From Nitrospira sp. (GTDB lineage: Bacteria > Nitrospirota > Nitrospiria > Nitrospirales > Nitrospiraceae): 64,000 nt of DNA. The translations under genes were made by a program, and so were the position numbers. Below the pieces are notes generated by a model. It ran no database searches and was not told the origin of the DNA. It worked only from the letters and a program-made list of their open reading frames with translations. The stretch lies in assembly GCA_024998565.1 (NCBI GenBank), contig JACOEM010000003.1:62001-126000 (forward strand), given 5' to 3'. Shown piece after piece: positions 22,706-34,855 of this stretch (position 1 is the first letter of the stretch; every line of letters begins with the position of its first letter).

Positions 22706-22866
22706 TGATCCTCACAGGTGGCGAACACCTGACTGTCTGCATGGAACGAACGCGATGATATGTGGCAAGCGAGCCCTCGTGAGCGGAAGGACCATGCGTG
22801 AGACATTTCTCAGCGCCACCCATTCCTACTGATTCCACTCCTGCGGTAAACGTTTATACTGGCGGT

Positions 22867-24114
22867 ATGGCCCAAGCCCATCGGTGGCTGCTCACACGCG
22901 ATTTCAGTCTCATGTGGTGGAGCCAGGTACTGTCCCAGGTTGCTGAAGGCATCAGCAAGCTGGCCTTGCTCTGGTTCGTCTATGCGGTGACCGGCTCGCC
23001 GCTCAAGACGACCGTCATCGGGCTTCTACAGACGCTCCCGCCGATTCTCTTCGGGCCGTTCATCGGTGTGATCGTCGATCGCTTCCCCAAGAAAACCATC
23101 CTCATCGGGAGCGATGTCGCCAGAGGAGTACTCATCGGACTCATCCCCTGCCTGGTCTCGGTGGAAAACTTTACCGTCGGGTCGCTCTACCTTCTTACCT
23201 TTCTCTACGGTGTCGCCACGGCTGTATTTGTGCCCACGCTCTCATCCGCCGTTCCCTTCATGGTCACTCGCCCTCAATTCACGGCGGCGAATGCGCTCCT
23301 CCAGAGCACGACCAGTCTGGGTATCATCATCGGGCCGGCGGTCAGCGGACTCGGTATTGCGTTTGTCGGTTCACAAGACGTGCTCTGCCTGAACGCTATG
23401 ACCTATTTTGCATCAGCGGCTTGTCTGCTGCCGATCCGGCTGCGAGTGACAGAGACCGTGCAGATTAACGGCGGGGGATGGAGACCATTCATCCGGCATC
23501 TGTTCGAAGGGATACGATATGCCTTTGTCACCCACCGCACGTTGCTGATCCTGATTGTCCTCGCGTCGGTCTATACGTTCGGCAGCGGCGCGTTCACGAC
23601 ACTGTTCCCTGTCTTTGGTCGCCATCTGCTCGGGCTCGGGCCGGTCGAGGTCGGGTATCTCTGGTCCTGGCTTGGAGTGGGGTTGCTGCTCTCTTCAATC
23701 GGGCTGATCCGGATGAGCGGGTGGGACCTTTCGCAGCGCCTCGCAGTGATCACGCTCTCCTGCGCCCTCGCGGGGTTGGCCTTGTTGGGCCTGACGTGGA
23801 CGGATGATTTGCGCCTGGCGGCCGTACTCGTGGGCTGCATCGGCATCGGCTTCGGCGCGTGGACCCCCATCGCCTGGGGCATTATTCAGGAAGTGGCTCC
23901 GGCGGGAATGGTCGGCCGCGTGATGGCGGTCTATACGGCGAGTGCCACCGCGACATCCATGCTCGGCATGAGTGCATTCGGCTGGGTGGCGGAGTCGTTC
24001 GGCTCTGTCGCCAGCCTCATTGGGATCGGCGGAGTGATGTGTGTCTTGGCAGGGGGGAGTGCCTGGTTTGGGAAGAAGATTGGTGTGGCCAAAATCGAGA
24101 AAGCAGATGTGTGA
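22867..24114 (+). CDS. MFS transporter, EntS-like exporter family
   Basis: A 415-residue inner-membrane protein with 12 predicted helices. The motif-A-like loop is VDRFPKKT after TM2. It is paralogous to the broken gene just upstream, with alignable segments throughout (LLTRDFSLMWWSQVLSQVAEG against LIQTRDFGLLWWGQTTSQIGEG). The ATG at 22867 matches the paralogue's N-terminus. A TATACT hexamer six bases upstream could give a leaderless mRNA. An alternative GTG at 22798 has a ribosome-binding site and would add 23 residues. Relatives export siderophores or drugs; the substrate here is unknown. Confidence 0.85.
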   Translation: MAQAHRWLLTRDFSLMWWSQVLSQVAEGISKLALLWFVYAVTGSPLKTTVIGLLQTLPPILFGPFIGVIVDRFPKKTILIGSDVARGVLIGLIPCLVSVENFTVGSLYLLTFLYGVATAVFVPTLSSAVPFMVTRPQFTAANALLQSTTSLGIIIGPAVSGLGIAFVGSQDVLCLNAMTYFASAACLLPIRLRVTETVQINGGGWRPFIRHLFEGIRYAFVTHRTLLILIVLASVYTFGSGAFTTLFPVFGRHLLGLGPVEVGYLWSWLGVGLLLSSIGLIRMSGWDLSQRLAVITLSCALAGLALLGLTWTDDLRLAAVLVGCIGIGFGAWTPIAWGIIQEVAPAGMVGRVMAVYTASATATSMLGMSAFGWVAESFGSVASLIGIGGVMCVLAGGSAWFGKKIGVAKIEKADV

Positions 24115-24164
24115 CGTGCAGTTGCCGGCTTGTCTCATGCGCGAAAAAAAGCGACAATGCGTCG

Positions 24165-24704
24165 ATGCAACGCCTACGAGGTCGATCGAGCCGTACTCCT
24201 CGATGTATTGTGATTGCCGGGCCGAACGGCGCGGGGAAAACCACATTCGCTCGAGAGTTTCTTCCACGTGAGGGCGGAGTCATCCATTTCGTGAATGCCG
24301 ATCTCATTGCGAGCGGGCTGTCGCCACTCAAGCCGGAATTGGCAGCCAGGCAGGGAGGGCGCCTGTTGCTGATGGAGTTGAATCGATTGGCTGGTGCTCG
24401 GGCAAACTTTGCTTTTGAGACGACTTTGAGCGGGCGGACCTATCTCAAGCTGTTAGCACAGTGGAAGGCGGATGGATATCGAATTGAAATCGTATTCCTC
24501 TCCTTGCCTTCCGTTGCCCTGGCCCTCCAGCGGATTGCCGTGCGGGTGCGTCAGGGAGGGCATGATGTACCACGGGCCGATGTCGTGCGTCGATTTCGTC
24601 GGAGCCTGAAGAATTTTCATATGCTATGCCGGGATCTGGCAGACAAGTGGTCCATCTATGATAATTCAGGGGCGGTGCCGAGACTGGTGGAGGGGAAGTC
24701 ATGA
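24165..24704 (+). CDS. Zeta-toxin-like P-loop kinase
   Basis: A 179-residue ATPase with Walker A AGPNGAGKTT (18-27), NADLIASGLSP (44-54, Asp 46 is a likely catalytic base), FAFETTLSG (82-90) and a basic lid RVRQGG. These match the zeta toxin/UDP-GlcNAc-kinase-like family. Zeta toxins phosphorylate the cell-wall precursor UDP-N-acetylglucosamine, but short chromosomal members like this are functionally unproven. The frame is open far upstream into the MFS gene; the ATG at 24165 is the first sensible start. Its stop overlaps the next gene by four bases. No epsilon antitoxin is recognised. Confidence 0.8.
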   Translation: MQRLRGRSSRTPRCIVIAGPNGAGKTTFAREFLPREGGVIHFVNADLIASGLSPLKPELAARQGGRLLLMELNRLAGARANFAFETTLSGRTYLKLLAQWKADGYRIEIVFLSLPSVALALQRIAVRVRQGGHDVPRADVVRRFRRSLKNFHMLCRDLADKWSIYDNSGAVPRLVEGKS

Positions 24705-25229: not shown

Positions 25230-25736
25230 GGTGTCCTCCTTGGGTGATTCGACCTTTTGATACTCGCTACTCGAATAAGTGAGCAAACTTAGTGCCAGGT
25301 CAGGTCTTCTGCCCTCTGTGTCACGAAGGTTTCTGCGGCGGAATGCTCAACTGAGAATTCAGGGCTCATGATTCATCCTACCATGAACATATTTTCATAC
25401 AGTTAGCGCGGGGATGTGGCTCGCCATGACCCTAGGAACGGCATCTTTCTACCCTGGTGATTTACTGGGGCAGCCGGCGCGAATTGACCCTGCTGAGTGG
25501 TTCGCATGACGGAAATTGCGTGGATATGACAGTCGGATACATCTGGACATCGGCAAAATGAGATGGGCTGTATCTCTTTCGATGCGGTTGTAGTGAGTGA
25601 ACGGGATGCGATTGTCTCGCTCCGGTCGAGTCACCCTTGTTGCTGGCGGGGTATCGCGTGTGACTTTGGGGTGCAACCTCACGGTTGGACAATATGCTTC
25701 AGTTTCTTCCTTCCTAGTACGTAGTGATTCTTGCCT

Positions 25737-25752
25737 CTAGTAGAGATACTAG
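25737..25752. promoter_or_regulatory. Inverted repeat upstream of the lipoprotein operon
   Basis: CTAGTA and TACTAG flank a GAGA loop, with partial pairing extending outward (CC...GG). It lies about 210 bases before the first operon gene. It could be an operator or RNA hairpin; function is inferred from position only. Confidence 0.3.
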
Positions 25753-25818
25753 GGCGAATTCGTTTCCCAATATCTCCCGTCGGAATGGTTGCATTTCATT
25801 CTCGATAGGGCCATTTGC

Positions 25819-25835
25819 ACGTATTGCGCATACGT
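25819..25835. promoter_or_regulatory. Palindrome upstream of the lipoprotein operon
   Basis: ACGTAT and ATACGT are separated by TGCGC, a perfect 6-5-6 palindrome about 120 bases before the ATG at 25959. Symmetry and position suit a dimeric regulator site. No cognate regulator lies next to it. Confidence 0.35.
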
Positions 25836-25958
25836 AGTAGTTCGTCTACAACCAGCCGCCTGAGATGAGGGGGATGCGTTTTGATGCCTTGCCCAAAATG
25901 GTTAGACGGAGCTGCCCATCGGAACGCTGAGACAAATACTTCCAGAGGGATCAACCCA

Positions 25959-27164
25959 ATGAAACACCGACTATGCCCCATTCCACTGATCGGCCTGGCA
26001 GTTATGGCCATATCCGGCTGCGCGAGTTGGGGCGATGTGCCTGCGGCTCTCCGCGTGGACTCCGGTCTAGAGCCGCAGCACATCGATGACCAAGTCCGGT
26101 TCCGTACCACGTACTACTTTCGTGTGTTGAGTGGATGCCGGATCGACACAACCCCAGAGGATGAGCGTTCAGCGGATTCGTCGCCATTTATGAAGCGCGT
26201 CCGAGGCGAGTTCAAACCACTCAGGGACTCCCTTTATCGTTTTCGTATGACCGGTCAGGCCGCGGCCTTGTATAGTCAGGTGCACTTCGAGTCCGGCGTA
26301 CTCAAGAAAAGTCAGATCGACTCCTTCGGCAGCGCGATCCGCTACAACGAACAGAGCAATTCATTTATCCCTGTCTCTGCCGATGATCTGCAAGCAGACG
26401 CCAAACGTCAGATTGCACGAGGAGAGGTCCGGGACTTGCGGGCGCTTTATCAAGAAATTAAGGACGATAAGTCCCTCGAATTGACAACCAAGGAAACCCT
26501 GCTAGCGAAGGTAGTGTTAATCATCGAGGAACGTCTAGAGCAATTGAATCAGTTGCGTGCAGTCAGCGTACCTCTGCGAGTAGCGACAGACGAGCCTAAA
26601 GAATCTGCAAAAGTGGGCGACACACCTTCTGTGCAGCCAGATCCCAAGATTGGTGAGCAGGCGACAGAGTTGCAGGCGAAGTTGAGCGAGGCCAACGATG
26701 CTCTGGCGAGTCAGAAGACAAAAGAAACGGCCAGCCTGAAAGATCTCTCGAAAACCATCGAAGGCCGTCTCAAGGAGCTGGAAGGGGCCAAGAGTAGGGA
26801 CGATGCTGAAAGGAGTTTTTCCTGCGAGGGAAAGCCATCGGAAACGAAATACTATCTTCTCGGGCCAGAGGGTACGAAAGAACTTGACCCGAATGATCGC
26901 CTGTTGCTTGCCCTTTCCATCGACAGCAAGCCGCTGATCAGTGCGCTTCAGCAGCTGTCCGAACCTAAATTCCAAACTGCGGGCAGAGAATTGAAGACCA
27001 TGGAACATCTACTGGAAGAGCGTGGAAGAATTTTGGACGCACAGAAAACCTTGCTGAGGGCGATGGGCGATCTACAACGTGAAGTCGCGCCTACTGATCG
27101 GTCGAAGCTGGAGACTTTGCTAGACACACTTCGCATGCCGTTCGCAACCACCGGTAGCAAGTAA
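25959..27164 (+). CDS. Lipoprotein of unknown function, first gene of the patatin-linked operon
   Basis: A 401-residue predicted lipoprotein: signal peptide with lipobox ISGC and lipidated Cys 21. Residues about 195-300 are Gln/Glu/Lys-rich and probably a coiled coil (ELQAKLSEANDALASQKTKE), and a second helical part lies near 330-390. Start ATG 25959 has an AGAGGGA site. No enzymatic motif is recognised. It is 15 bases upstream of a second lipoprotein on the same strand. Codon use is visibly more AT-tolerant than in the flanking core genes, which suggests transfer. Confidence 0.75.
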   Translation: MKHRLCPIPLIGLAVMAISGCASWGDVPAALRVDSGLEPQHIDDQVRFRTTYYFRVLSGCRIDTTPEDERSADSSPFMKRVRGEFKPLRDSLYRFRMTGQAAALYSQVHFESGVLKKSQIDSFGSAIRYNEQSNSFIPVSADDLQADAKRQIARGEVRDLRALYQEIKDDKSLELTTKETLLAKVVLIIEERLEQLNQLRAVSVPLRVATDEPKESAKVGDTPSVQPDPKIGEQATELQAKLSEANDALASQKTKETASLKDLSKTIEGRLKELEGAKSRDDAERSFSCEGKPSETKYYLLGPEGTKELDPNDRLLLALSIDSKPLISALQQLSEPKFQTAGRELKTMEHLLEERGRILDAQKTLLRAMGDLQREVAPTDRSKLETLLDTLRMPFATTGSK

Positions 27165-27179
27165 GGGAGCCCCACGACC

Positions 27180-28805
27180 ATGACCAAGCTTAGCGCAACT
27201 CGTATCTCCCTCCTGGCCACAGTACTGCTGGTATCCTGCCTGCCTGGCTGCTATGTCTTCAACGACTCAGCTGCTATGCGTATCGAGGTGGAGGTCTACA
27301 AGGGCCCGCTGTCGCTCGAACCAGAAATTCAACTTGGAGAGCTATATGGCTATCTAATCGAGGCTCAGAATGGATTGATCAGAGTGCGGGACGTTTTGGA
27401 AACCGTTGGCGAGATTGGGGAACTGGGCGAATCTCCTCCCAATAACGGCGCTGACCCGAACAATGAGAATTCTGTCAAAACCTGGTGTGAGAATATTGGT
27501 CCAAGAGGTTTGGCTCAAAAGGATATTGATCCAACAGGATGGTTTAGTCGGATCGATTATTTCCACTGCCGCTTGCTTAAATCGTTGGATGATGATGCTG
27601 ATAGCCTATCCCGCAAACTGATTCTCCCTATTTGTGCGCTGCATAGCACTGGTGCTTGCTCTGCATCCATTCACGCTGCAACAGAGATATCCGTTAAGAA
27701 GTTTCAGAAACAGATTAGCTCGGAGAAGTGGTCAAGTCAGGTTGATTCGATAGCACCGCATTCGGGCGCTGACGCGCTTGCGCGCTATAACTTGGCGTTG
27801 CGCGCAGCGAGCGAGACTGCTGCGGCTATGCAAGCTGCAGCCTTTCGATATGCTACTGCCAGCACAGCAGGTCGCCCGACAAAATTCAAAGTTCGCGTCG
27901 CCATGGTGCATTTTATCGCTGCCGCTTCCGAATACGGCAATCAAATTCAAGCTCGAGCCGATGCCTTACTGAAGCAGCTTGGGCCTGAGGGGAGAGATAG
28001 ACGAGAACTTCCGCTGAGCGTCCATCTTCGGGGAGCGGAACCTACTGACTTCGTTCATCTATATGAATGGTCTGGTGCGCACACCCCTCAATTTTTGGAT
28101 TACTTGCTCTTTGGGTCCACGACCCCCATTGGAGAAAAAATCAAGATCATCGACCGACTCTACGCCGACCATTTTTGGTCGAAGATCAACACGGTCTATG
28201 CCAGTGGCCGTGGCAAGGCTCAGATGGCATTCATCAAGGATGAAACTGGCAACTGGAATCTCAAGAGTTTCGATAATGACCCCACTGAATTGCTGGATGC
28301 CTATACCAAGGTTACAAAATCAGCTCTCGAAGGTGTCGTCGAAATCGCCGGTGAGATTGCCAGCGGCGGCGCCGATGCCGGGTTCAAGAAGGCTGCGGAT
28401 GAGCTCCTTGCAATTGCCCGTCAAACTGACCCTGATAAACCCCTGCAGGCCACACTGTCTGGCGGTGCCTTGTCGTTGAATCATCTCCGCGCCCGTATCG
28501 ACGGACAACTGAACGCCAAGCATGTACGAACTGACCTGAACAAAGATAAAGAGCTAATGGATAAAGTCAAAACAGCGAAAGAAGCCAGCGATGAAGTCAA
28601 AGCCTCGCTTGAAAAGGCCAAACAAGATTCGACGTTAAGCACGCAGATCCTGGCTGAGGAGGAAAAGACTACCGGGACCGCGCTTGAGAACGCACAGAAG
28701 GACCTGGCCGCTCACCGAAAAACTGTCATCGAGAAATGGGCTGCACTCATCGATGACCATAGCCAGTTGGTCGATCTGCTCAGTTCGACGGTCACAAAGC
28801 AATGA
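27180..28805 (+). CDS. Large lipoprotein of unknown function, second gene of the operon
   Basis: A 541-residue predicted lipoprotein. The signal peptide ends in overlapping lipobox candidates, LVSC (Cys 20) and LPGC (Cys 24). The central part (about 195-250) has Ala-rich helices, and the C-terminal 110 residues form a charged coiled coil (KTAKEASDEVKASLEKAKQD). Several Cys residues (in KTWCENIG, HCRLL, PICALHSTGACSA) could form disulphides, consistent with a periplasmic position. I recognise no family. Its stop overlaps the next gene's start by four bases, so the two are translationally coupled. Confidence 0.75.
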   Translation: MTKLSATRISLLATVLLVSCLPGCYVFNDSAAMRIEVEVYKGPLSLEPEIQLGELYGYLIEAQNGLIRVRDVLETVGEIGELGESPPNNGADPNNENSVKTWCENIGPRGLAQKDIDPTGWFSRIDYFHCRLLKSLDDDADSLSRKLILPICALHSTGACSASIHAATEISVKKFQKQISSEKWSSQVDSIAPHSGADALARYNLALRAASETAAAMQAAAFRYATASTAGRPTKFKVRVAMVHFIAAASEYGNQIQARADALLKQLGPEGRDRRELPLSVHLRGAEPTDFVHLYEWSGAHTPQFLDYLLFGSTTPIGEKIKIIDRLYADHFWSKINTVYASGRGKAQMAFIKDETGNWNLKSFDNDPTELLDAYTKVTKSALEGVVEIAGEIASGGADAGFKKAADELLAIARQTDPDKPLQATLSGGALSLNHLRARIDGQLNAKHVRTDLNKDKELMDKVKTAKEASDEVKASLEKAKQDSTLSTQILAEEEKTTGTALENAQKDLAAHRKTVIEKWAALIDDHSQLVDLLSSTVTKQ

Positions 28806-30025
28806 GTAGCGTCACAACGGTCGAAAGGTGGTTGACAATGGTTCTAAGCTGCGGCACCACACCGTTGCCCTATACGCCAGACGGCCAAGCGGTGGAGCAG
28901 ATCCTTGGCAAGATTGATGTGATGCTCGCGCAGCTCGACGCCACGTCCACCCATACTGTTCGACTGGAGCGGATCAAGCGGTCTCTGACCGAGTTGAAAA
29001 GTGCCAAGGTTGGACAGGCCGTTGCGGAGCTTCCAATGAAGGATGGTGCGCTAGACCGCGTTGGTTGGGATGCGAAACCTGAAGCCGACCGACGAGCGGT
29101 CTGGGAGAAGGTCTCTGCCATCCATGATGAACTGCGTTCCCTAAATGCCGCCTCGCTTGTCAGTGGAAGGCGGTATTTTGCGCTGTTCTCCATACTGTTC
29201 CTTCTGGTCGTCTCGGGCTATCTGTGTGTGCATCGACAAGCCGTCAGGGATTGGGTGCAACCACCACTTACTTCACACCTCAGCCTCGCGATATTGCATA
29301 AAGCCCGCCTCATTGAACTACGACTCGCCTCTCTCAAAGAGTCGCAGAATCAAAAGAAAAAAGAAATTACGCCTCCTGCGCCGCCTGTATTAAGCGGACA
29401 AGCTCAGGCTCCCAAGGCTGTAGAACCTCCTCCCATGCCTGCGGTCTCATCTCCAGGGCAGCTTCTAGTTCCAGGGCTAAAGCCTGATTGTAACGAGCCA
29501 CAACCTGCGTGTCTCTTGAAGGATCTTAAATCGGTGCTGTATCCATTGCCGCTTCCCTATGAAACTATACGCTTGCTCGGCATGGCTTCAGCAGAGCTTG
29601 AAGCCGGTGACATCACCGTTCATGTCACATATCAGAATTTCTTAACGCATCTACAGACCGACCTTGAAAGCCTGAGTACGTCATATTTTTGGACCAGTCA
29701 TCCCTGGCGCTGGCTTGAACTCTCGCTGTGGGCGAGCATGGGTTGCCTGGTCGGCCTGCTGTTCTATATCGCCGGTCTTCTTGGGAAGGGAGTGTTTCGG
29801 CCTGAGGAAGGGACGATGTTCATGGCCGAACTACTTATGGCTCCCGTAGTCGTCCCAGTGATTTTCTTTCTCTTCACATTGAGCGGGATCTCGGAGTTCA
29901 TTCCCAGCCAATCTTCAATCACGATGAACATTGGGATAGCATTTATTTTTGGCTTCGCCATTCGTCGTACCATCGGCATTCTCGACATCATTAAAAAGCG
30001 GTTCTTTCCTGATCCTACGCCGTGA
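28802..30025 (+). CDS. Membrane protein with four predicted helices, third gene of the operon
   Basis: A 407-residue protein with predicted helices at about 125-144, 305-328, 342-365 and 373-390. The first 120 residues are probably cytosolic and helical. Between helices 1 and 2 lies a region of about 160 residues, probably periplasmic, with a Pro-rich stretch (PPAPP, EPPPMP) and two Cys (230, 237). The tail is basic (KKRFF). The start at 28802 overlaps the preceding stop by four bases; an internal ATG at 28838 is possible. No transporter or enzyme family is recognised; it could anchor the lipoproteins to the inner membrane. Confidence 0.75.
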   Translation: MSSVTTVERWLTMVLSCGTTPLPYTPDGQAVEQILGKIDVMLAQLDATSTHTVRLERIKRSLTELKSAKVGQAVAELPMKDGALDRVGWDAKPEADRRAVWEKVSAIHDELRSLNAASLVSGRRYFALFSILFLLVVSGYLCVHRQAVRDWVQPPLTSHLSLAILHKARLIELRLASLKESQNQKKKEITPPAPPVLSGQAQAPKAVEPPPMPAVSSPGQLLVPGLKPDCNEPQPACLLKDLKSVLYPLPLPYETIRLLGMASAELEAGDITVHVTYQNFLTHLQTDLESLSTSYFWTSHPWRWLELSLWASMGCLVGLLFYIAGLLGKGVFRPEEGTMFMAELLMAPVVVPVIFFLFTLSGISEFIPSQSSITMNIGIAFIFGFAIRRTIGILDIIKKRFFPDPTP

Positions 30026-30210
30026 GGGTGAGCGACATCTTCTGATAAGACAAGTTGCCGTGTCGTAGGGTTTGGAAAGGTCGGGATGATGGTACGCCGT
30101 AAGTTCGTGTCACTCTCGACAATCCCGAACCGATAGCTATGTAAGTGTGGGAAGACTTTGAGAGCTACAGCCACCATTGGTAAGCCAAGAACGTGCACTC
30201 GGAGCAGAGG

Positions 30211-32409
30211 ATGAGATTTGCACTGATCTTTCTTGCAATGTTGTTAGCGGGATGTGCATCAACATCACTGCCTGGTGCCATTCATAGTAGATCTTATTAT
30301 GAACAGGGGGTTGAAGCACGAACCCGCAGCAAAGGAATCGGCCCTCAGCTAGGCCTCGCGTTAGCGGGCGGAGGCATCAAAGCTGCGAACTTTTCGGTCG
30401 GAGTGCTTCAGGGATTGACGGAAGCAGGAGTGATGGAGCGTGTCGATGCAGTCTCAACCGTGTCCGGAGGCGGGTACGCTGCCCTCTGGTATTTTTCACG
30501 GTTGTTGAATCCGGAAGGTAACCTGCAGGATGCAGGTGCGCCGCGTACTTCAAGGGCTGTGGCCGGTAAATTCTTCCGAGATTGTCTTCCTATCAAGTAC
30601 GTCGATTATTTTGGTGACTCTTCTAGTGATGGCTCAGTAACAAGCAGGGACGCTCACTTATCTAGAGATGCTACTTTAGAGAGGTGCCCTCAGTCCATTA
30701 CGAACTATGATGCGAATTCCACCTCCTTCTTTCACGATGATCCGGTTCGCTATCAGAATCACCTTCGTGGATACCAGGATCTTTTCGGGTGGAACGCGCC
30801 ATTCCGGTATAACGAGACGACTAAGCACAAGTTACAAGTCAATTTGGAGTATGTAGGACTGAGTCTGTTGACGTTAGGAGCGACGGCGTTCAATGTGGTG
30901 CCGAATCTTGTTTTCGACTGGGAAATTAAACTTTCCCCCTCTCGATGGCGATACGAGGTAGGAATAGTCCGAACATTTGGAGCCACACCACACAATTGCA
31001 AGAAGCCTTCTGTTGCCTGCGACAAAGATACTCGACCGCTTGGTGAGGAAGAGTGGGTGAGAAATGATCTCACGTTTGGTCTGTTGCGACAAGAGTATGA
31101 AAAGGGTACCGTGCCCCTGTGGATCATCAATGCCACAGCAGGAGAAAATCGAAGCTGGCTCTACTTAGATGGCACTCCAGAACAAAAGCGCTTCCAACTT
31201 ACAGCGTTTGAGTTTTCTCCCTACGGATCAGGTTCCGGTCTGTTCGATTACTCGACAAAACAATTGAGCAATTTGCGCCCCTGGGAGGCTGCAATCTCGT
31301 CCGCAGCATTTCTCGACTCCCAGCAAAAGGTTCTGCGAAAGTGGCTCGCGCTAGCTAACCCTGCTTTGAAGCTGACTACGCTTGATTGGGGGAGAAGTGT
31401 TCCAAATCCGCACGTTTCTCTGGCTGAAAACATCTTGCACAAGCTACTCCCGTTTCCCCTGTATCTCCTCCATGGTCGAGCTGGAGATTCTGCAGGCGAT
31501 TTTGTGAATATCCGCCTTTCCGATGGTGGCCAGTCGGAGAATCTGGGTGCATACGCGCTCATCCAGCGAAAGTTGGAAGACATTATCGTCTCAGATCACT
31601 CTGCAGATAGAAGTGGATCAATGGCTGATATCTGCCGATTGAAGTACGGTCTATTGAGAGACCAGGCGCAGGACCCCTTGTATCTCTATCTTCCTGGCCT
31701 AGCGAACCTTGACCAGGTTTGTAACCAGGACTTGGAGTTAGGGTACGATATTTTCAGGTGGGAGCATCCAATTGTGCTGGGTTGTATTACATCCAACCCA
31801 CGAGATGTTACCTGCTCTGGTGAAGCGAAATCGGAGCGTCACTTTCAACGACTGTATCTCATCAAGCCTGCGCTGCCCAGCTCACAAAGTCACGATGCGC
31901 TTGGGAGTGTGTTGGCTGCCGTCGGACGAGAATGCCGAAGCGGCACGAACACAGCGTCTTGCAAAGCTGCAGTTGCAGGACATTGTGATAGCTTTCAGCC
32001 AAGAAGTGGTCATTTACGGCCCACTGCTGGAGGGGCGCGCCGGTCTCAGCCCTGGTCTTTTAAGAACGATGCGAGTTGTGAGTTGATCGGTTTTATGATG
32101 ATCAATGCGTTCAATAAGGGTGGATTCAACGACGACGATCTCTGCCCGTATGTTCCTCAGAACGGTACTGCCGCGGTCACAGCAGATTCATCACCGTTTC
32201 TGTTTGGCGCCTATCGAGAACTAGGGTACTACTACGCAAAACGACTCGGTTGGTTCTTCGGTCAGGATATCGATCGGCCTAGGGTCGATGCCGTGACTAG
32301 ACAAGCTCGATATCGTGCAGTTATCGAAGACCAGATGCAACATTCCCTCATTCCTGTGACGCGGTTTGTTGATGGCAAGGCAGGACCGATAGCGGTCTGC
32401 CTCAGGTGA
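30211..32409 (+). CDS. Patatin-like phospholipase lipoprotein, fourth gene of the operon
   Basis: A 732-residue lipoprotein: signal peptide with lipobox LAGC (Cys 15), then an alpha/beta-hydrolase-like patatin domain. The oxyanion loop is GGGIKA (53-58). The nucleophile is Ser 85 in STVSGGGYA, a variant of GXSXG in which Thr replaces the first Gly. The catalytic Asp is 438 in LSDGGQSENLGA. The roughly 350 residues between nucleophile and Asp are a large insertion for a patatin. Start ATG 30211 has a GGAG site; GTG 30193 is possible. It lies 185 bases after the membrane protein gene. Patatins hydrolyse acyl chains from lipids, so an envelope phospholipid substrate is likely. Confidence 0.85.
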   Translation: MRFALIFLAMLLAGCASTSLPGAIHSRSYYEQGVEARTRSKGIGPQLGLALAGGGIKAANFSVGVLQGLTEAGVMERVDAVSTVSGGGYAALWYFSRLLNPEGNLQDAGAPRTSRAVAGKFFRDCLPIKYVDYFGDSSSDGSVTSRDAHLSRDATLERCPQSITNYDANSTSFFHDDPVRYQNHLRGYQDLFGWNAPFRYNETTKHKLQVNLEYVGLSLLTLGATAFNVVPNLVFDWEIKLSPSRWRYEVGIVRTFGATPHNCKKPSVACDKDTRPLGEEEWVRNDLTFGLLRQEYEKGTVPLWIINATAGENRSWLYLDGTPEQKRFQLTAFEFSPYGSGSGLFDYSTKQLSNLRPWEAAISSAAFLDSQQKVLRKWLALANPALKLTTLDWGRSVPNPHVSLAENILHKLLPFPLYLLHGRAGDSAGDFVNIRLSDGGQSENLGAYALIQRKLEDIIVSDHSADRSGSMADICRLKYGLLRDQAQDPLYLYLPGLANLDQVCNQDLELGYDIFRWEHPIVLGCITSNPRDVTCSGEAKSERHFQRLYLIKPALPSSQSHDALGSVLAAVGRECRSGTNTASCKAAVAGHCDSFQPRSGHLRPTAGGARRSQPWSFKNDASCELIGFMMINAFNKGGFNDDDLCPYVPQNGTAAVTADSSPFLFGAYRELGYYYAKRLGWFFGQDIDRPRVDAVTRQARYRAVIEDQMQHSLIPVTRFVDGKAGPIAVCLR

Positions 32410-32661
32410 CCCGATCGTTAGGACTGAGGAGCACAGGTTTGACCATGCTTCCGTATGTACCTCGGTCAACGGGTGATGGGTCGAAATAGTCAGCCATTCC
32501 GAGCCAGCTTGAACAGTTTTGCTCCTACCGCTATGCGCGGCCGGGTTAGTGAGGGCGCGAAACAATTAAGGGTGGTTCCGCCTGGATAGATGCATATGTG
32601 TTCTGTGTATCAGCATGGGTAGTGGTAGGAGAATGCCCGATTGGTAAGGGAGGAAGCGCAA

Positions 32662-32895
32662 ATGAAGCCCATACTATGGCAGACAATCGATCAGCAACAG
32701 CAAACGACAGGGCCGGCTCCGGGCCTCATTTCGATGCTACGTACGGATCGTGCAGAAATTCCCGGTGGGTGGCTGGTCAGGACTCTGGTTCTGCATCGAG
32801 AACAAACGACGCCTCCTGGCGGAGCACCGGATATTGAAGCCAGTGCGGCATGTGGAGTGACGTTCGTTCCTGACCATACGCACGCATGGAGATAA
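32662..32895 (+). CDS. 77-residue protein of unknown function
   Basis: The ATG at 32662 follows a good AGGGAGGA ribosome-binding site. The product ends in segments that look like a real folded protein (EIPGGWLVRTLVL, then GVTFVPDHTHAW). There is no signal peptide or membrane helix. The pattern of a GGWLV strand followed by TFVPD...HxW recalls small uncharacterised bacterial and phage proteins, but I cannot name the family. It lies between the patatin and DUF1353 genes. Confidence 0.6.
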   Translation: MKPILWQTIDQQQQTTGPAPGLISMLRTDRAEIPGGWLVRTLVLHREQTTPPGGAPDIEASAACGVTFVPDHTHAWR

Positions 32896-33082
32896 CAGCA
32901 CGACCATTATCCACCAGCGCCTTCTATGGCAAGGAGGGGCTGCTTATTTTCAACGTCAATGTGGCAACTTGTGCTTGGTAGGGATGAGGTCGTGGCAAAC
33001 TTTTGCCATTTTGTATCAGCTGACCGCGTCGCCCTGGAGCCGCCTATTGGTACTATCATGCAGTTGCGGGAGATGCCAATAA

Positions 33083-33646
33083 ATGGGCACAAACATTGAA
33101 TTCTGGGGAGTGTTTACTATTCTTTTCTTAAGCGCAATCGCATATTTGATCAAGCCAAGGCACGTAGGAATTCGATTTTCGCGGACGCCACCGGTTATCG
33201 CTCGGGTCAACGCTCCGTCGAAGGGCGCCACCGATGAGCAACGAGTGATCAGTCTTCCGACCGGAGACCTATACCAAATCCCTGCCTGTGTCCGCGGTCA
33301 CTTCGTGATGGTGTTTGATTGGAATGTGCCCATCGTGATTGACGGCGTGACGCACGAATTGATCATCCCCAAACTAGGTACTACGGACTTTGCAAGTATC
33401 CCACGGATTTTGCACTCACTCATTTCTCCCCTGAACAACACGATTTATGCTGCGATTTTGCATGATTGCCTTTACAGGAATCCTATAGATGAATTCGCAC
33501 GGAGCCTACCACGCGAAACTGTGGATCGAGTTTTTTACTGGGGCATGCGTGCTCGTGGCGTGTGGCGATTGACGGCCGGATTTATGTATCTAGGTGTTCG
33601 CAGCGGGGGATGGATCAGCTACAAACGGATGCCGAAATCAGGGTAA
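33083..33646 (+). CDS. DUF1353 family protein with an N-terminal membrane segment
   Basis: A 187-residue protein. Residues about 6-23 form a membrane helix, and the DUF1353 domain follows with the typical TDFASIPRIL (about 100-109), AAILHDCLYRNP (about 122-133) and late Arg/Trp-rich part. DUF1353 proteins are common in phages and prophages and their function is unknown. The conserved His-Asp suggests a hydrolase-like or metal site, which is inference. GGGAG precedes the ATG at 33083. Its phage association supports the idea that this stretch was acquired. Confidence 0.75.
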   Translation: MGTNIEFWGVFTILFLSAIAYLIKPRHVGIRFSRTPPVIARVNAPSKGATDEQRVISLPTGDLYQIPACVRGHFVMVFDWNVPIVIDGVTHELIIPKLGTTDFASIPRILHSLISPLNNTIYAAILHDCLYRNPIDEFARSLPRETVDRVFYWGMRARGVWRLTAGFMYLGVRSGGWISYKRMPKSG

Positions 33647-34105
33647 TGTTTTTCTGATATGTGAGAAAATCGAACATGATCTGTATGTCCACTTGCTCCC
33701 TTCACTTCTGAATTCTACTCTGACTCTCATTGGCCATAAGCGGGGGACAATGTGGCAACCTAACTCTGGGCAGGTGTTGCATTGAGTATGTTTCGGTGCG
33801 TGGCGGTGTACGATTCATCTGGCCAACGGCTTTCTACAGCACGCTTGCGGAGCCACACGTATGTCCGCTCTTTGGCCATGAGACTCTGTCTTATCGCTAC
33901 GTACGGTGATTACCATCAGCCGATGGCGCAGACTCGCTTCGTCTCCAAGCTCGTCGCCTAAAGTGTCTTCTTCTTGCACGACCGCGCCTAAGTTCCGACT
34001 GCCCAGCTTCCACCGCCTGCCCCTCTCCCCATATTGACTCGCCTATGAAACCCCGCTAGCCTCTAGCGCCCTCAGACAATCACCCGGTTACCAGGAGGTT
34101 AGGCC
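33647..34105. other. Intergenic region at the right edge of the low-GC island
   Basis: These 459 bases contain no frame with a credible start. A 12-base word (CAATGTGGCAAC) at 33748-33759 repeats one at 32957-32968 on the other side of the DUF1353 gene. The right end carries the GGAGG site of the DUF4412 gene. Nothing else is recognised. Confidence 0.5.
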
Positions 34106-34855
34106 ATGACGCTGTGTCGATCTGTCGCAATGTTGGTCTCGTTGGTCCTTGTGCCTCTGACGGTCGCGGCTGCGCCGCCGCCGGAGCCGACGGTGGAGTA
34201 TTCGGCGGACAGCACGATGGAAACCGAGGGTGGGATGACGATGAAGTCCCGCGTCTATCACACGCCCACGAAGCAGCGGATGGAAATGGGCGGGGCGGAC
34301 GGTAGCGTCACTATTATCCGCAAGGACAAGAAGGTCGTTTGGCAGGTGATGGGCGATATGTATATGGAGATGCCGCTGGATCAATCGAACGCGCCCGACA
34401 TGGGTGGCTTCGACATTCAGGAACAGACCGAGGTCGGTGAAGAGACGGTCAACGGCTTGAAGACCACGAAAACGAAGATCATCGCGACCAAGCCGGACGG
34501 GTCGAAGTTCGGCGGTTTCTTTTGGACCACCAAAGAGGGTGTCACGGTGAAAATGGATTTGCTGTCGAAGGACGGCGATAAGAAGATGCGTATGGCCAGC
34601 GAGTTGACGAATGTGAAGATCGAGAAGCAGAACCCTGCGCTGTTTGAAGTCCCCGCAGGCGCGACGAAGAACGATATGGGCGCCATGATGGGGCAGGGCG
34701 GCATGCCGAACATGGAAGAGATGATGAAGAACGCCGGGCAGGAGCGGGCGAAGGAGAAACGCTCGTCCAGGAGCAACAGCGGGAGCAAGAGCCAGGAGAG
34801 CGAGACGCCTGCTGCCGAAGTGAACAAAATGCTCAAAGGCCTCTTCGGTCGATAG
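34106..34855 (+). CDS. Secreted DUF4412-domain protein
   Basis: A 249-residue periplasmic protein: signal peptide (about 1-22, ending VAA), then a beta-rich DUF4412 domain (about 28-195) with repeated Met (GGMTMKSRVY, MGDMYMEMP). The tail (about 195-249) is Met/Asn-rich and then basic (KEKRSSRSNSGSKSQ). DUF4412 function is unknown; the fold resembles outer-membrane lipoprotein carriers. GGAGG precedes the ATG at 34106. It is 12 bases upstream of another secreted-protein gene, so the two are probably one operon. Confidence 0.78.
   Translation: MTLCRSVAMLVSLVLVPLTVAAAPPPEPTVEYSADSTMETEGGMTMKSRVYHTPTKQRMEMGGADGSVTIIRKDKKVVWQVMGDMYMEMPLDQSNAPDMGGFDIQEQTEVGEETVNGLKTTKTKIIATKPDGSKFGGFFWTTKEGVTVKMDLLSKDGDKKMRMASELTNVKIEKQNPALFEVPAGATKNDMGAMMGQGGMPNMEEMMKNAGQERAKEKRSSRSNSGSKSQESETPAAEVNKMLKGLFGR

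Follow-up and report, generated by a model that had tools for sequence, protein, structure and literature searches.

The window analysed here, a stretch of 64,000 nucleotides from a Nitrospira genome of 4.13 Mb, carries a cluster of four same-strand genes, P1 to P4, that encode three predicted lipoproteins and a membrane protein and are followed by a gene for a DUF1353 protein, P5 (Table 1). An earlier note on this DNA had described the four reading frames, and both their lengths and their spacings are confirmed: P1 and P2 are separated by 15 bases, P2 and P3 overlap by 4, and P4 starts 185 bases beyond P3. P1 to P3 are closely packed, and P4 may belong to a separate transcript; promoter and terminator scans of the cluster returned matches at chance level only. 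Two of the genes have alternative starts, namely an upstream TTG allowed by the ORF tool for P1 and an upstream GTG at 30193 for P4, which would yield a protein of 738 aa and from which the P4 residues given below are counted. Between P4 and P5, a short unannotated reading frame of ~77 codons (32662-32896) can be seen by eye.

Table 1. Genes of the cluster, the flanks of its insertion site and the inserted block, in window coordinates.
Feature	Coordinates	Strand	Description
MFS transporter	22798-24114	+	left flank of insertion site 1
Inserted low-GC unit	25590-34015		~8.4 kb, carries P1-P5
P1	25959-27164	+	401-aa lipoprotein from ATG; no family match; first half of the constant lipoprotein pair
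P2	27180-28805	+	541-aa lipoprotein; no family match; second half of the constant pair
P3	28802-30025	+	407-aa inner-membrane protein; predicted periplasmic loop ~143-304, replaced between species
P4	30211-32409	+	732-aa patatin-like lipoprotein; PF01734 match
P5	33083-33646	+	187-aa DUF1353 protein; PF07087, E 2.6e-17; predicted N-terminal hydrophobic helix
DUF4412 gene	34106-34855	+	right flank of insertion site 1

Protein features and insertion of the cluster

P1, P2 and P4 each have an N-terminal hydrophobic stretch before a lipobox cysteine (ISGC, LPGC and LAGC, respectively), and this cysteine is invariant in the homologue alignments of all three, as is characteristic of bacterial lipoproteins. 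P3 contains hydrophobic helices at residues 119-137, 305-323, 340-358 and 379-397, a layout in which one helix near residue 119 is followed by a loop of ~160 residues and then by three helices. The lipobox and helix scan thus agrees with the lipoprotein nature and the four helices that had been proposed for these proteins. Because the 324-340 loop and the C-terminus of P3 are positively charged, both probably lie in the cytoplasm, which would place the long loop in the periplasm.

Searches of Pfam, NCBIfam, PADLOC and PHROGs returned nothing significant for P1, P2 and P3, which therefore fall outside every curated family searched, in line with the earlier claim that the first three proteins are unrecognised. 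Profiles of P1 and P2 found nothing among PDB sequences, and the P4 profile gave a chance match only. P1 and P2 have conserved stretches of their own: P1 contains the motifs YRFRMTGQA...FESG...IDPFG and GPEGxxEL...RLLMAMS, and P2 has a conserved N-terminus (first ~80 residues) and a KDdvGNW core, both in common with giant relatives of 1340-1435 aa, to which hhalign relates it with a probability of 96.9% (E 1.6e-10). AlphaFold2 models built on alignments of the window and L001 sequences only had a mean pLDDT of 46.5 for P1 and 38.9 for P2, and at such low pLDDT no contacts among cassette proteins are discernible.

The match of P4 to PF01734 is a marginal pass (E 3e-6, 28.0 bits vs. a cut-off of 27.7) and covers the N-terminal motif only. 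The patatin motifs are present, with a GGGxK oxyanion loop (G59-61), Ser91 in STVSGGG and Asp444 in LSDGG; the GGG loop, Ser91 and Asp444 are invariant in the P4 alignment and also occur in further relatives. In the nucleophile motif TVSGG, threonine occupies the first glycine position of a GxSxG-like motif. Judged by these residues, P4 is a patatin-type lipoprotein and a predicted acyl hydrolase. P5 additionally matched a PHROG of phage-tail type (phrog_1158, E 8.7e-22), and its HDCLY motif might recall the HDxxY of phospholipase A2. Elsewhere in the same genome (L035, 6874-10938), a 1354-aa protein combines a patatin motif with numerous hydrophobic segments and a GNAT acetyltransferase domain at the C-terminus.

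The orthologous site is empty in three relatives (L096, L097 and L098 in genomes G024, G161 and G140), which share the flanking genes; the alignment skips from window positions 25589-25591 to ~34001-34030, with ~80-910 bases in between. Since the flanks are joined there without the block, we delimited the inserted unit as given in Table 1. At 52.1% GC, compared to 60.1% elsewhere in the window, the unit coincides with the window's GC minimum, and GC3 is 0.50-0.59 in the cassette genes vs. 0.72-0.80 in three genes of the flanks. The block is a genuine insertion. GC content and GC3 therefore agree with the low-GC island that had been proposed, but the island reaches further than supposed and takes in the DUF1353 gene. 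An integrase, a tRNA or an obvious target duplication marking the insertion was not found. A zeta-toxin/AAA-type kinase domain (PF06414, E 9e-11) is encoded at 24100-24704, immediately to the left of the site of insertion, and overlaps the end of the MFS reading frame in another frame.

A lipoprotein pair with changing partners

We mapped 27 loci, which were collected mainly via P2 searches, so that the sample is not neutral. At 25 of them P1 directly precedes P2 or its giant form; of the remaining two, one is a contig end and the other a copy damaged by an IS. Of 197 genomes of the order, 24 contain relatives of P2, and across the phylum the P2 profile has hits in 21 of 396 genomes, which belong to two genera; P1 and giant P2 are also found in another family of the order (L093). 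Among the 175 genomes of the family, P3 is limited to three, the window genome (G000), G040 and G118, which carry the cassette of the window, here called cassette A, and in all three P5 accompanies it. Several cassette copies are broken, two of them containing transposase genes. The spread outside Nitrospirota was covered by plasmids, phages and viral contigs: giant P2 was absent from the plasmids and phages searched, short P1 and P4 were absent from the plasmids searched, and the profiles of P1 and P2 yielded nothing in IMG/VR. The earlier note had made its case dependent on the genes occurring together elsewhere and on P1 to P3 lying outside known families, and both are the case. However, the four-gene set is not a conserved unit, as judged by P3; what is conserved as a core is the P1-P2 pair, and its lipase and membrane-protein partners can be swapped.

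Downstream of the pair, hydrolases of unrelated families follow in the same direction at 14 of the 27 loci, and the remaining 13, some of which are cut by contig ends, have no adjacent hydrolase. The partner is a P4-type patatin in the window, L037, L039 and L092, in the last of which it adjoins a P2-type giant. A second patatin without lipoprotein signal comes with its own small membrane protein in L040, L052 and L090. The third type, cassette D, comprises a TM protein, a DUF900 hydrolase, a dienelactone-hydrolase (DLH) lipoprotein and a 750-aa hydrolase, in most cases together with a small TM protein (L050, L051, L054, L087, L088 and L089, as well as L099, where the 750-aa hydrolase is missing). 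The membrane proteins of the compared cassettes are mutually unrelated (hhalign probability <1%). Hence, the proposed tie between novel envelope lipoproteins and a lipase recurs independently in other loci.

Relatives of P4 also lie directly downstream of other lipoproteins. In L124 there are three of these, each of ~195 aa, and in L125 the preceding lipoprotein is a Calx-beta protein of 880 aa. L126 has one of 432 aa, and DLH and DUF900 hydrolases follow there as well. In L124 (9467-13555) and L126 (5117-12185), the uncharacterised lipoproteins before the P4-type patatins show 'GYxR' and 'FATGxAA' patterns and possibly represent a further lipase-linked lipoprotein family; a kinship of P1 with them, suspected from 'FATGxAA', was not supported by hhalign. 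Rhizobial plasmids, among others, encode the second patatin, and in one annotated neighbourhood (Tistrella) no comparable lipoproteins were found beside it.

Clustering of the flanking genes revealed four genomic sites that each hold different cassettes. Site 1, which extends from the MFS genes to the DUF4412 gene, is empty in 3 genomes, holds cassette A in 3 and a DUF900/DLH cassette in 5 (L050, L051, L087, L088 and L099), the common flank in the latter being the MFS side. At site 2, beside putative Pup-proteasome genes, C165-P1-P2 is present in four genomes and P1-giant in L053; the neighbours of L038, L042, L043, L044 and L053 were read by eye as a Pup-proteasome locus and thus as a recurring insertion neighbourhood. 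Site 3 is occupied by P1-P2-patatin-TM in L040, P1-P2 in L048, a lipoprotein and P4 with DLH and DUF900 in L126, and giant-P4 in L092, and site 4 by giant-patatin-TM in L052 and L090 and by C165-P1-giant alone in L091. An empty orthologous site thus exists together with differing contents at one and the same site, as is typical of exchangeable hot-spot cassettes. In view of the differing contents at shared sites and the broken copies, the cassettes are accessory and exchanged.

The three genomes with cassette A allow a comparison of its copies. Whereas the two genes to the right of the insertion mostly differ by 1-23% at the DNA level, segments of 98-100% identity within cassette A abut segments with a DNA identity of 37-50%. 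Near-identity in all three genomes extends over the final 200 residues of P2 and residues 1-147 of P3. P2 residues ~61-220 have diverged between the window and G040, and the P3 loop at ~147-240, which falls in the predicted periplasmic loop, between the window and both other genomes; in P4 the divergence peaks at ~100-200 and 590-620. There is no covariation between the variable segments of P3 and P4 across the three genomes, so that a simple matched-pair specificity is unsupported.

Possible functions of the cassettes

We read the locus as an accessory cassette, exchanged laterally, whose products form an envelope-spanning module of lipoproteins and a lipid hydrolase, with P1 and P2 as its constant part and conflict as its most likely purpose, and assign this reading a probability of roughly 0.45. 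P1 and P2 form the constant lipoprotein pair, with a predicted location at the outer membrane, and a cassette-specific inner-membrane protein, here P3, would extend its variable loop into the periplasm and link the lipoproteins to the inner membrane. The hydrolase, here P4, would cut membrane phospholipid. Other cassettes retain P1 together with P2 or giant P2 and exchange membrane proteins and hydrolases for unrelated ones. P1, P2 and P3 might keep the lipase silent or in position as long as the envelope is undisturbed; once phage entry, an attacking competitor or contact perturbs the envelope, the lipase would harm the cell's own membrane or that of the attacker. The architecture, comprising insertion, modular exchange, hydrolase coupling, conserved catalytic residues and mosaic divergence, is well supported; localisation, complex formation, regulation and the role in conflict are what we infer. 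Since the cassettes occur sporadically, share sites, decay and diverge as mosaics, much as conflict modules do, we favour defence or antagonism with moderate confidence and regard these features as a better match to conflict than to housekeeping.

The same set of proteins could alternatively maintain the envelope, with the cassette remodelling or recycling phospholipids in outer-membrane lipid homeostasis or stress repair and P1 to P3 acting as scaffold and lipase partners. A coupling of lipid hydrolases to envelope lipoproteins and membrane proteins would suit this role, but a cassette found in so few genomes of the phylum (21/396), cleanly missing in close relatives and often broken is hardly what one expects of it, and interchangeable hydrolases are unusual for housekeeping; we consider it rather unlikely. 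We see even less probability in lipid or ester scavenging, where surface lipoproteins would bind lipidic nutrients and the hydrolases would free fatty acids for uptake. In its favour, the exchange of esterase and lipase types suits changing substrates, and cassette D encodes DLH and DUF900 hydrolases, neither of which is a typical phospholipase. Against it, the scanned neighbours of the mapped cassettes included no recognised uptake gene, and giant P2 has no recognised binding domain. In addition, Nitrospira are mainly chemolithoautotrophs.

The cluster might also encode a T6SS effector of the Tle type, so that P4 would be delivered into rivals and the lipoproteins would be periplasmic immunity proteins. 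Tle families include patatin-like lipases, and the immunity proteins of these families are often periplasmic or lipoproteins; the mosaic divergence of cassette A would agree with this. However, among the 11 genomes tested, a single one gave a match above the cut-off to VipA (PF05591), the T6SS sheath protein, and none was found in the three cassette A genomes; this lack of the sheath gene in the window genome and nearly all others tested weakens the proposal. Furthermore, P4 has its own lipoprotein signal, which is unusual for T6SS cargo, and a constant P1-P2 pair with a changing hydrolase is the opposite of specific immunity, which leaves a T6SS effector quite improbable. We judge it equally improbable that the block is a chance neighbourhood, that is, a low-GC island of unrelated accessory genes that happens to include a patatin. 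The 185 bases that separate P4 and the occurrence of P4-type patatins beside other genes would fit coincidence, but in L092 P4 once more adjoins a giant of P2 type, and at ten additional loci the pair precedes other hydrolases. Cassette genomes have 2-6 patatin matches each, and any one locus would have an estimated probability of <1% of lying within four genes of a patatin, a rough figure that assumes ~4000 genes per genome and involves no formal test; because four independent site-and-patatin combinations were observed, coincidence is unlikely.

If the conflict reading is taken further, the cassettes would constitute a Nitrospirota-centred system in which P1 and P2 or giant P2, combined with interchangeable membrane proteins and lipid hydrolases and mobile among a few chromosomal sites, protect the cell via envelope-triggered lipid hydrolysis, a tentative and somewhat doubtful proposal. 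Literature searches, whose coverage left out most subscription journals, found no description of such a cluster; the exchangeable lipoprotein-lipase cassette seems to be undescribed so far, and a categorically new system is possible. If our reading holds, the ecologically central nitrite-oxidising bacteria would carry unnoticed envelope modules that pair new lipoprotein families with varied lipid hydrolases, and a periplasmic, lipase-based class would join a field dominated by cytoplasmic defence systems. Several unannotated protein families would gain a concrete, testable role, and the P1-P2 pair can be used as a search handle for further cassettes.

Comparison with known systems

P4 has the oxyanion GGG, the nucleophile serine and the DGG motif in common with bacterial patatin-like phospholipases (PF01734; ExoU, PlpD and CapV types), but differs from them as a 732-aa lipoprotein with an N-terminal Pfam match only. 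In contrast to PlpD, which has a beta-barrel domain, P4 showed no match to such a domain, and unlike CapV, which adjoins a cyclic-nucleotide signalling gene, it has no gene of this kind beside it. With T6SS Tle/Tli pairs the cluster shares a lipase adjoining lipoproteins; it differs in the missing VipA of the window genome, the lipase's own export signal and the lipoprotein pair as the constant element.

With polymorphic toxin systems (PMC3482391) the cassettes share a conserved scaffold, enzymatic parts that can be exchanged and patches of recombination. However, whole genes rather than C-terminal toxin domains are exchanged here, and neither an immunity gene nor a domain for secretion or processing was recognised in the cassettes. 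A search against PADLOC families gave nothing significant for P1 to P5 or the proteins of other cassettes; a DrmC match in L092 was rejected, as it sits in a transposase-like tail. Compared with hot-spot anti-phage defence cassettes, the parts described here are predicted envelope lipoproteins and not cytoplasmic sensors, but they resemble such cassettes in their sporadic occurrence, their swapping at shared sites, their decayed copies and the combination of an effector-like enzyme with partner proteins.
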